64,000 nt of DNA, taken from Haloprofundus salilacus. Lineage in GTDB: Archaea; Halobacteriota; Halobacteria; Halobacteriales; Haloferacaceae. Below, one piece after another: positions 60,425 through 64,000 of the stretch (position 1 is the first letter of the stretch; each line of letters begins with the position of its first letter). A program made the position numbers and the translations under genes. The notes under the pieces are model-generated. The model had not been told where the DNA came from, ran no database searches, and saw only the letters and a program-made list of their open reading frames with translations. The stretch lies in NCBI RefSeq assembly GCF_020150815.1, contig NZ_CP083723.1, positions 1,736,001-1,800,000 of the forward strand, in the 5' to 3' direction.

Positions 60425-61078
60425 TTACTCGGCGTCGGCGACGTCTTCGGCCACGTCGGACTCGTCGACGTCGACGGCGGCCTCCTCTTCGGCTTCGACC
60501 TCTTCGGGACGCGCCTCCAGCGAGAGCTTCTGAATCTCGACCCGGCGAAGCGGGTAGATGGTCTTCGCCTCGCCGTAGATCGCCGAGGAGAGTCGGCCTT
60601 CGACGACGCTGTCGATGAGCTGTTCAAAGCTCCGGTCGTCGGCGGCATCGCGGACGAGGTCGATCATGACCCGGCGAATCGCCTTCTCCTGACTGCGGTC
60701 GGCCTTCTTCGTCGTGAACGCCACGGGCTGGACCTGGACGCGGTAGTCGTCGGTCGTCAGGATGGTGATGTTCGCCTCGACTTTCGAGGCGCCGCGGCGA
60801 ACCAGACTGCGCAGGTAGTCCCGCGTCAGTTCGTGCTGGATGAACTCGGTGTACGCCGAGTCCGACCCCACGTCGTTGATCTTGAACGTGAGTTTGGTGT
60901 TGTTCGCGCCGGCGTCGTCTGTAATGTCGCCGAGCGTGGTCTCGATGGTGCGTCCGTACACCATCTGCGGTTCCTCAGCGACGGTCTTTCCGAGTTCGGC
61001 CCGGTCGAACTGCTCGGGCGCGAGCACGGAGTACCATCGCTTACCTCGTTTCTGCTTGGATACTGAACGTTCGCTCAT
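60425..61078 (-). CDS. rps3ae: 30S ribosomal protein S3ae (eS1)
   Basis: 217 residues. KRGKRWYSVLAPEQFDRAELGKTVAEEPQMVYGRTIETTLGDITDD at the start, KLTFKINDVGSDSAYTEFIQHELTRDYLRSLVRRGASKVEAN, and VIGEAKTIYPLRRVEIQKLSLEA-like end are the core of eS1. The acidic tail EEVEAEEEAAVDVDESDVAEDVADAE is a halophile trait. Last gene of the rps15 operon; its ATG overlaps the stop of pcc1. Confidence 0.95.
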   Translation of the reverse strand: MSERSVSKQKRGKRWYSVLAPEQFDRAELGKTVAEEPQMVYGRTIETTLGDITDDAGANNTKLTFKINDVGSDSAYTEFIQHELTRDYLRSLVRRGASKVEANITILTTDDYRVQVQPVAFTTKKADRSQEKAIRRVMIDLVRDAADDRSFEQLIDSVVEGRLSSAIYGEAKTIYPLRRVEIQKLSLEARPEEVEAEEEAAVDVDESDVAEDVADAE

Positions 61079-61308
61079 GTTGTGTGCTTACGTGCGGTGT
61101 CGATGACGGTCTCTGCGACCGTCAGGTTCACCACGTAGTCGTCGACCGTGGCCTGTAAGCCGCCGGTCGTCTCCCGCTCGATGTCGGTGACGATGCGGTT
61201 CGAATCGACCGTCGTCGTCATCGAGTCGGTGTCGTCCGGGGCGAGCGCGGCGGCGACGAGCGCCGCCTCCTCGTGCGTCGTCTCGACGCGCGCGGTTCGC
61301 GAACTCAT
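61075..61308 (-). CDS. pcc1: KEOPS complex subunit Pcc1
   Basis: 77 residues. Small alpha/beta protein TTHEEAALVAAALAPDD...VDSNRIVTDIERETTGGLQATVDDYVVNLTVAETVI. In KEOPS (Kae1-Bud32-Cgi121-Pcc1) it makes the Kae1 dimer contact needed for t6A modification of tRNA. It overlaps the neighbouring genes by 4 nt on both sides, so it is tied tightly to ribosome and nuclease genes. Confidence 0.88.
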   Translation of the reverse strand: MSSRTARVETTHEEAALVAAALAPDDTDSMTTTVDSNRIVTDIERETTGGLQATVDDYVVNLTVAETVIDTARKHTT

Positions 61309-62522
61309 GCGCGAAGCGCCTCCCGGAACGCCGCGGTGAACGGGTGTTGGTCTGTCGTCGATGCGTCTGGCGTGGTCGTCGCGTCCGTCTCCTCGGCGTC
61401 GAAGCGCGCTTCGCCTGCGTCTTTCCGTCCGTAGCCCGTACCGCCGACCTCGGCGGCGGCCGTCGCCATCGTCGATCCCAACGCTCGGGGTTCGACGCTC
61501 GCGGCGGCGGCGGCGCCGTCGCCGACGGCGAGGACGACCGGTTCCGGCGACCGGAAGTCGCGGACCAGTCGCGCAATCGTCGAGAGGACGCCGAGCGAAT
61601 CCGACCCGAGGCCGGTTCGCACGACGACACAGTCGGCGAATCGAGCGGTGTCGGCCTCGCGCAGAACGGTGTGGGCTTCGAGCGCGTGGTTGCGCCAGGC
61701 GTCGAGCGCTGCCGTCTGTGTCGCGTCGGTAGCGTGACCGAGTGCGAACGCGACGCCGGTTCCGGGGCGCTCCCGGGCGACGGCGCAGAGCACGTCGGCG
61801 TAGCCTTCGACCGTCTCGAACGGACCATTCGGCGTCTCGTACGGACGCAGAAGGCGCTCGAGCGACTCGACCGCCCGCGGCGTCGCGTTGTCCGTCTCCG
61901 TCGCGTCGAGCGCGGCGAGGGAGGCGACGCGGCGGTGCGCGTCGGCGTCGAGTTCGGCCGGAAGGTTCGCCTCGGCGAGCGCCGCCCGCGCTGACTCCAC
62001 GTCGCCGGAGTACGGCGCGTGCAGCAGCGTCGAGTGGGCGAGGCCGTCGGCGAGGTCCGCGACGGGGACGCCGACGCCGGGGCGTCGCGTCACCCCTCCG
62101 GCTTCGGCGGCCGACCGAATCGGGTCGTACTCGTCGTCTCCGAGCGAGGCTTCGCCGGCGACGACGCCCGCGAGTGCGAGCGTCGCGTCCGGCGCGTCGC
62201 CGAGTTCGCTCGCGACGCGGTACGCCGCGAGCGTCGCCGGCGACTCGTCGCCGGGAACGGCGAGTCGGGTCGCCGTCGCACCGACGGAAACGACAGTGTC
62301 ACCCCGGTCGTCGGCGTCGTCGTCGACGACGCTCTCCGGATTTGCGCGGAGTTGGACGTGGAACGGAACGTCGGCGCTCCTGAGCGCACGCGCGAGGATG
62401 CCACTTGCGGCCAGCGAGTCGCCGTCGGCGCGCGCGACGACCCGGACGAACGGGGCGTCGGCGAGCGCCGCGGCGACGGCGGCGGGGGCGGTCTCGGCGT
62501 CGGCGGAGCGCGCGGTCGACAT
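61305..62522 (-). CDS. RecJ/Cdc45-like DHH-family protein, probably inactive
   Basis: 405 residues. Motif I is kept as RVVARADGDSLAASGILARAL, but where active relatives have the DHH motif this protein reads DTVVSVGATATRLAVPGD, and the DHHA1 GGxxxA motif is weak (EPRALGSTMATAAAEVGGTGYGRKDAGEARF). It therefore probably does not cut DNA. Such degenerate RecJ paralogues in archaea bind GINS and MCM like Cdc45. It sits between rps15 and pcc1 with a 3-nt gap and a 4-nt overlap, so it is co-expressed with translation genes. Confidence 0.8.
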   Translation of the reverse strand: MSTARSADAETAPAAVAAALADAPFVRVVARADGDSLAASGILARALRSADVPFHVQLRANPESVVDDDADDRGDTVVSVGATATRLAVPGDESPATLAAYRVASELGDAPDATLALAGVVAGEASLGDDEYDPIRSAAEAGGVTRRPGVGVPVADLADGLAHSTLLHAPYSGDVESARAALAEANLPAELDADAHRRVASLAALDATETDNATPRAVESLERLLRPYETPNGPFETVEGYADVLCAVARERPGTGVAFALGHATDATQTAALDAWRNHALEAHTVLREADTARFADCVVVRTGLGSDSLGVLSTIARLVRDFRSPEPVVLAVGDGAAAAASVEPRALGSTMATAAAEVGGTGYGRKDAGEARFDAEETDATTTPDASTTDQHPFTAAFREALRA

Positions 62523-62525
62523 TCG

Positions 62526-62990
62526 TTATTCGAGGAGTTCGACGGCGACGTCGTAGCTGTAACGGAACGACGGGTCGAGCGCGTCGCCTCGGTAGTAGTT
62601 AACGAGGCGGCGAATCTTCGACTCGGTGTTCTGCAGCGCTCGGCGGTTCTGGTGGTCCTGCGGGTTGCGCTGGACGTGTCTGCGGAGTCGAACCGCGCGT
62701 TGCATCAGGTTCTTGAGGTCCTCGGGCAGGTCGTCAGACGCGTCGTTCTCCTCGAGAATCTCGGTGACCTTCTTGCCGGTCGCGAGTTTGACGTTCGGGA
62801 CCGGGGTACCTTTGACGCCTTCGTCGCGCAGTTTCAGGCCGATGACGCTCGGGTCGTGGCCTTGCTCTGCGAGTTCGACGACGCGCTGTTCGATGTCGTC
62901 GGCGTCGACGTCGCTCCACTCGGGGGATTCGTCTGTCACCGGGCGGTCCGAACCGGACGAGCCGCGGCGACGGGTGTGCATTCGTGCCAT
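62526..62990 (-). CDS. rps15: 30S ribosomal protein S15 (uS15)
   Basis: 154 residues from ATG 62990. MARMHTRRRGSSGSDRPVTDESPEW is the archaeal/eukaryotic N-terminal extension; GLKLRDEGVKGTPVPNVKLATGKKVTEIL precedes the S15 core LMQRAVRLRRHVQRNPQDHQNRRALQNTESKIRRLVNYYRG. It binds the central domain of 16S rRNA at a three-way junction. First gene of the rps15-recJ-like-pcc1-rps3ae operon, preceded by an unusually long structured leader. Confidence 0.95.
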   Translation of the reverse strand: MARMHTRRRGSSGSDRPVTDESPEWSDVDADDIEQRVVELAEQGHDPSVIGLKLRDEGVKGTPVPNVKLATGKKVTEILEENDASDDLPEDLKNLMQRAVRLRRHVQRNPQDHQNRRALQNTESKIRRLVNYYRGDALDPSFRYSYDVAVELLE

Positions 62991-63001
62991 AGTTCGAAAT
63001 T

Positions 63002-63141
63002 GGAACGGCACTGACCGCAGAAAGCGTGACCGACAGCTGTCGGTGCACTTCCGCAATCCCAAGCCCGGAGAGAGAACCCGGGCGAGTCAGAGTTGCGGCC
63101 GTGCTGTTCCCACAGGTGGGTTCCCCCGTCGAACGTTAAAC
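63002..63141 (-). promoter_or_regulatory. Promoter and three-way-junction leader of the rps15 operon
   Basis: CGAAACGGTTTAAC on the minus strand (63146-63133) gives a BRE and TATA, predicting a start at about 63112. The next 110 nt can fold as follows. P1 pairs 63110-63101 with 63011-63002, 9 of 10 bp. P2 pairs 63098-63093 (CCGCAA) with 63056-63051, extended by the GCCCGG/CCGGGC hairpin at 63083-63063. P3 is ACCGAC-AGCT-GTCGGT at 63044-63029, plus 3 bp. P1 closes 11 nt before the rps15 ATG. Confidence 0.6.
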
Positions 63142-63277
63142 CGTTTCGACTCGCGACGCTCGACGCGTTCGTTTCTGCGGTCGGGACGGTCGCCCGACCG
63201 CGTGGGGGTGTGGCACACGCGCCTGTACGAGTCGAAGCCCTTATTAATCGGTCAGAGGTACGTGAGAGTGCAGACGA

Positions 63278-63349
63278 GGGCTCGTAGATCAGTGGTAGAT
63301 CGTTCCCTTGGCAGGGGAAAGGCCGCGGGTTCAAATCCCGCCGAGTCCA
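63278..63349 (+). tRNA. tRNA-Ala (GGC)
   Basis: 72 nt. Acceptor GGGCTCG pairs with CGAGTCC, including the G3-U70 wobble that marks tRNA-Ala. D arm GATC-AGTGGTA-GATC, anticodon stem TTCCC/GGGAA with loop TTGGCAG (anticodon GGC), T arm GCGGG-TTCAAAT-CCCGC. CCA is not encoded. TTATTAAT at about 63241-63248 is the box A, about 30 nt upstream. Divergent from the rps15 operon. Confidence 0.96.
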
Positions 63350-64000
63350 CTACGATTTCTTCGGCGTTAGCAACAAATGAGAGCATATGATCCTCACTAA
63401 CATTCTCCTTTACAAAATTGAGAGTCTTCGAGGATGAGTTTAGGGTTGTCAAACCTCACATCAGCCCTCAGACCCATCGAAAAACCACACAACTTCCGGT
63501 ACGAGTCATTATCAAAGAGAGCCTCGACAGTTCCTTGAGAGAGTCGCTTGAGGATTCAGAGGGACCTATTTAGGTTTCATAATCGGCCTCAGTCCCCGCA
63601 AGAGACCTTCTATTACCCCACTCAGGAGGTGAGTCTGAGCTATCAAGATCACAAATCGTGAAGAAGGACATTCAGCACGGATTCACAAAGATTAGCGACA
63701 GCGACCAGTACGCTCGAGTCTCTCGAATCAACGGGTAGAAAGAATACTCTGCCGAGAGCAGAAAGTAATGAAGACAAACGAGCTTGAATGGGCAAAACCG
63801 ATAGACGGAAACCGATTATGAAGATTCGAGTAGGTGAAAAAGAGAGCGATAAATCAGGAGTAACGGACGGGGAATTTGGCGCCTCATAGCGTCTAGCGCT
63901 CATTTTCTATATTTGACGATATAGGTGCGGCCACTTGCAACTGGCTCAGAGTCAAGGTTCAGATAGGGTTGTACGCCTCTCTTGCGGCGTGAAAACCGAT
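63350..64000. other. AT-rich tail downstream of tRNA-Ala, no supported gene
   Basis: The GC content falls abruptly after the tRNA, unlike the rest of the window. Only short broken frames are seen, such as one ending before 63572 with LRVFEDEFRVVKPHISPQ and a later one with VKKDIQHGFTKISDSDQY ending near 63738. The frame at 63649-63903 (minus) has no haloarchaeal character. tRNA 3' ends are common integration sites, so this may be the edge of an integrated element or the remains of one; no integrase or second att copy is in the window. Confidence 0.5.

Follow-up and report, generated by a model that had tools for sequence, protein, structure and literature searches.

The DNA upstream of rps15 in Haloprofundus salilacus raises the question whether the transcript of this gene carries a structured leader and how such a leader would act on the synthesis of ribosomal protein S15. 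In Haloferax volcanii, 72% of the protein-coding transcripts are leaderless, and translational control through structured leaders has been considered untypical in haloarchaea (PMC4983044). An earlier sequence-only reading of the locus had proposed a three-way junction of the stems P1, P2 and P3 in front of rps15 as a new, candidate autoregulatory RNA and knew of no archaeal S15 leader. Here, we analysed the whole stretch of 64,000 nucleotides around the locus (the window; contig NZ_CP083723.1, positions 1,736,001 to 1,800,000) together with the corresponding leaders of related archaea.

A catalogued leader upstream of rps15

A covariance-model search identified the stretch 63113-63045 as RF03143, the S15-Halobacteria leader, covering the full model (1-66). 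The match was obtained on the minus strand only, is the sole one in the genome that contains the window and precedes rps15 in the same orientation, with the S15 start at 62990 (Table 1). RF03143 occurred in 288 of the 292 Halobacteria genomes sampled, in agreement with the proposal that the leader is structured and a candidate for S15 autoregulation. The claimed novelty did not hold, as the family was first published in 2020 by Eckert and Weinberg (PMC7247131), and the RNA described there agrees with the one found here in sequence, site before rps15, strand and proximal fold. The S15 leader of the window is already catalogued, real but not a new RNA, and RF03143 is ordinary for the lineage, being nearly universal among Halobacteria. 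The same publication proposes that RF03143 imitates the S15 site of 16S rRNA and predicts it to bind S15 and to repress the gene that it precedes; its main text mentions neither a switch nor a competing fold for this family. A search of the available literature for experiments on S15 binding or own-gene repression by RF03143 found none. In the organism's own 16S rRNA, the relevant region contains GGCUUGG and CGAC, a short likeness that is consistent with the proposed mimicry.

The four genomes lacking a match to RF03143 were read directly. In one of them (G054) the available DNA stops within the leader, and the remaining part keeps the proximal and distal strands described below; in the other three (G021, G217 and G285, from two other families), inspection of the region upstream of the S15 gene found the leader to be absent. 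Two genomes with weak or low RF03143 scores (G215, G198) have an insert within the P2 loop. In eight leaders the apical P2 loop is enlarged by big inserts, which explain the weak RF03143 scores of two of them, L114 and L115.

The S15 protein encoded in the window is 95% identical to that of H. marisrubri. Its gene is followed by a likely operon in which the genes for a 405-aa protein, Pcc1 and S3Ae come in this order; the published gene order is rpsO, recJ, rps3ae (PMC7247131). The promoter that had been placed ahead of the leader (BRE CGAAAC, TATA GTTTAAC) is present, and the position of its TATA element predicts a transcription start at about 63112. Among the 77 leaders, out of 151 distinct ones, that show a strict BRE/TATA pattern, the spacing between TATA and GGGAA is near-constant at 28-30 nt in 71. 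A tRNA-Ala (GGC) gene lies divergent from the leader at 63278-63350 (+), and in several other genera the end of such a gene is likewise found upstream of the leader. The window also contains the archaeal SRP RNA (RF01857, 58361-58673 (+), 198.3 bits); outside the window, the same genome has an eL15-Euryarchaeota leader (RF03144) at C1:2390017-2390086 (+), scoring 34.5 bits against a cut-off of 33.7.

Table 1. Features at and around the S15 leader in window coordinates.
Feature	Position	Strand	Basis
S3Ae gene	60425-61078	-	likely rps15 operon
Pcc1 gene	61075-61308	-	likely rps15 operon
Gene for 405-aa protein	61305-62522	-	no Pfam match
Likely operon, genes after rps15	60425-62522	-	gene order (see text)
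rps15, ribosomal protein S15, 154 aa	62526-62990	-	PF08069 and PF00312
Possible start-codon hairpin, GUGCCGUUC with GAAC and GGCAC, when distal strand is free	62984-63011	-	prediction
Distal strand GCGGUCAGUGCCGUUCC, competes with proximal strand (state C), outside Rfam model	63002-63018	-	standard pairs in relatives (see text)
P3 hairpin ACCGAC-AGCU-GUCGGU, outside Rfam model	63029-63044	-	spacer hairpin in relatives
Proximal strand GGGAUUGCGGAAGUGC, partner of 5' strand in Rfam fold (state A)	63045-63060	-	standard pairs and double changes in relatives (see text)
Apical part of P2, containing UGAC and GGCUU, 16S S15-site mimic as proposed in the literature	63061-63093	-	Rfam match; PMC7247131
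5' strand GGGAACAGCACGGCCGCA, common to two exclusive pairings	63094-63111	-	conserved, 151 distinct leaders
RF03143 S15-Halobacteria leader, Rfam-covered part	63045-63113	-	77.5 bits, cut-off 49
Promoter: TATA GTTTAAC 63141-63135, BRE CGAAAC 63149-63144	63135-63149	-	sequence and spacing in relatives

One 5' strand with two exclusive partners

All three proposed pairings are present on the minus strand of the window: P1 (GGAACaGCAC 63110-63101 with GUGCcGUUCC 63011-63002, containing a single A-C mismatch), P2 (CCGCA/UGCGG plus a GC-rich inner hairpin) and P3. In the Rfam fold, the 5' strand pairs with the proximal strand and GGGAA stays unpaired, a pairing that the sequence-only reading had missed. 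Its P1 joins the 5' strand to the distal strand, which includes the 3' side of P1 and lies, as does P3, beyond the end of the RF03143 model at 63045. In an unconstrained fold of the minus strand, P1 grows inwards, so that 63111-63094 pair with the region up to 63018. Of the proposed three-way junction, P1 and P3 stood, both being conserved upstream of rps15 in the alignment of 151 distinct haloarchaeal leaders; the junction is not the sole fold and represents a conserved alternative to the Rfam fold. In the fold of the window, the proximal strand also lengthens P3; this was discarded as a general feature, as 151 of 2000 permutations with swapped partners were equally good.

Read on the plus strand, the A-C mismatch of P1 would be replaced by G-U pairing, and a small RNA transcribed from the same place in that direction had been named as an alternative. 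However, the Rfam match and the promoter with its near-constant spacing are both confined to the minus strand, and the minus strand of a 136-nt stretch folds better than its dinucleotide shuffles (z -2.97, 1 of 200 shuffles equally good), whereas the plus strand is unremarkable (z -1.49). In addition, few columns vary as much as that of the mismatch, which is paired in just 25% of the distinct leaders. A plus-strand small RNA is therefore highly improbable.

The full leaders from 151 distinct haloarchaeal sequences share a recurring order up to the AUG, consisting of 5' block, proximal strand, variable spacer and distal strand. The duplex of the 5' strand with the distal strand is stronger than that with the proximal strand in each of the 151 leaders (mean -26.4 versus -14.7 kcal/mol) and is better than all 50 shuffles in 134 of them. 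In leaders without indels, standard pairs make up 95.4% of the distal and 99.8% of the proximal pairing, compared to 27-48% and 13-45%, respectively, in slid registers, a control that is generous where the structure was derived from the same sequences. The two pairings, each with at least 95% standard pairs, share one 5' strand and are mutually exclusive. P3 recurs as a hairpin in almost all leaders, its sequence having turned over completely (146 spacers; mean z -2.95, 94.5% below -1). With few exceptions, 8-13 nt (median 11) separate the end of the distal helix from the AUG. In three leaders, two of them from Haloquadratum, additional AT-rich nucleotides widen this gap to 34-37 nt. Rearranged distal strands remain able to pair; in one leader (L052) the distal pairing is only partly retained (p 0.16).

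Coupled evolution was assessed by a tree-aware null in which substitutions were reassigned to other branches of the S15-gene tree. For the distal pairing in all leaders, this yielded a z of -6.7 (0/400). As a null that separates linked events exaggerates the signal, nulls in which the events of one branch were moved jointly and nulls on indel-free leaders were added. Under the joint null, the distal signal across all leaders was lower (z -3.1, 0/300), and in leaders without indels the coupling was weak (z -2.3 and -1.5) and not significant in the strictest test (18/300). Much of the distal coupling signal comes from lineages in which the pairing has survived deletions or rearrangements. The proximal helix shows seven double changes among distinct leaders; the energy tests for its pairing (tree-aware, joint and indel-free) had few events and were not significant (z about -1).

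These results bear on whether the leader might simply act as published, with S15 on the Rfam fold blocking translation directly and the distal strand being kept for other functions, e.g., ribosome entry, RNA processing or stability. The outcome of the strictest coupling test would fit this explanation, as would the little or absent variation of most paired distal columns, many of which never vary. However, the distal columns that do vary are chiefly those predicted to form an end, a mismatch or a bulge (23, 13 and 12 events, respectively), pairing survives in rearranged distal strands, and the Methanomicrobia show the same arrangement with a different sequence (see below). We therefore regard this explanation as rather unlikely. 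The comparison instead gives good support to the view that the leader has a conserved competing distal strand, which is kept by nearly all haloarchaea. Since this strand competes with the catalogued stem throughout nearly all of the group, the outer stem of the sequence-only reading and P3, as conserved parts absent from the Rfam entry, suggest an on/off switch.

A putative S15-dependent switch at the start codon

The most likely reading, which we hold with about half of our confidence, is that the RF03143 leader is a two-state feedback switch in which S15 traps the proximal fold and closes the start. Transcription of the leader would begin near 63112 (minus strand). The 5' strand would pair first with the proximal strand, giving a fold similar to the S15 site in 16S rRNA. 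S15 in excess would bind and trap this rRNA-like fold (state A), leaving the distal strand free to pair with the start-codon region and thus to lower translation. When S15 is scarce, the distal strand, made later but stronger, would capture the 5' strand (state C, including P3 and the outer stem), which would leave the start region freer. S15 is the probable ligand, judged by the gene context and the published likeness to rRNA, and we infer both the order of these events and the polarity of the switch.

In whole-mRNA folds of the haloarchaeal leaders, with energies computed, as throughout, for standard salt and not for molar KCl, states A and C were nearly equal in energy (differing on average by 1.5 of about -78 kcal/mol), and C was the better one in 52 of 151 leaders. 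In state A, the distal strand is predicted to pair with codons 2-3 at p > 0.5 in 120/151 leaders, and the predicted openness of positions -6 to +12 is higher in C for 95 leaders and in A for 19. The polarity in which S15 traps state A is favoured because of these two predictions. The hairpin at the start codon itself is predicted only. Codons 2-3 are nearly invariant (GCA in 149 and CGA in 148 of 151 leaders); this was rejected as proof of the hairpin, as nearby synonymous sites are conserved too and the signal is unspecific. Covariation supporting the hairpin was not found among the 151 leaders, in which the GCAC of codons 2-3 scarcely varies.

The main rival to this model has the opposite polarity: S15 would bind or stabilise the three-way junction that the distal strand closes, the long helix about 11 nt before the AUG would block the ribosome, and state A would be the expressed one. 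The narrow range of distances between distal helix and AUG in nearly all leaders and the conservation of P1 and P3 are in line with this possibility. However, the published fold (PMC7247131) closes the rRNA-like part with the proximal helix, and the start is predicted to be more accessible with the distal helix in place (95 versus 19 leaders). We consider the opposite polarity unlikely, and trapping of state A by S15 remains the preferred model.

S15 leaders of Methanomicrobia and related systems

The S15-Methanomicrobia leader RF03137 belongs to the same clan (CL00121), precedes the same gene and has the UCCGAC and UUGGGAU parts in common with RF03143. It differs in having additional hairpins, a U-run ahead of the distal strand and strands of other sequence, and its covariance model gave no match in the genome containing the window. 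We compared the strands of 71 Methanomicrobia leaders. Here, the 5' strand GUAAGUCC lies opposite a distal GGACUUAC, GGAUUUAC or UGACUUAC outside the Rfam model, and an analogous competitor of this kind is present in nearly all of the 71. In 70/71, the 5' strand pairs more strongly with its distal than with its proximal partner, and a run of at least four U directly precedes the distal strand in 69/71. GGAU occurs in the distal strand of each of the four leaders that have GUAAAUCC or GCAAAUCC, and one leader (L247) differs in all three strands together.

A different hairpin was observed upstream of the S15 gene in sixteen leaders assigned to the Methanosarcina group by search position. Its loop is like UCUCCCAAnGUUC and is preceded by CACUUCGCCA, and the stems differ entirely (ACAGG/CCUGU, UAUCAGG/CCUGAUA, AAGUUAA/UUAACUU). 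An Rfam search gave no match for this hairpin, and an automatic consensus fold on a MAFFT alignment of these leaders yielded no structure; it is possibly a third archaeal S15 leader. In five further leaders, the S15 upstream regions share a long conserved stretch (GCUGUGGCGGAUUAAAAUCUCCCGAUCGAUGU...), and the three of them that were searched had no Rfam match.

Bacterial S15 leaders, as cited in PMC7247131, likewise exert S15 feedback on the own mRNA, partly via rRNA-like structure, but have other RNA structures and occur in other organisms. In archaea, there is in vivo evidence that L7Ae regulates its own mRNA via the 5' UTR (PMC5539422). This system involves another protein and another RNA motif, the k-turn, and the available part of that paper does not describe a distal competing strand.

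We are evenly divided on whether the S15 leaders of Halobacteria and Methanomicrobia are both two-state switches, in which a conserved distal strand absent from the Rfam models competes with the S15-binding fold for the 5' strand and S15 decides between them. If so, both Rfam models, RF03143 and RF03137, would stop short of a functional element, and a concrete, testable mechanism would be at hand for a leader whose ligand is predicted but whose mode of action is hitherto undescribed. The two families would then share an undescribed mechanism of ribosomal protein feedback within the Halobacteriota.
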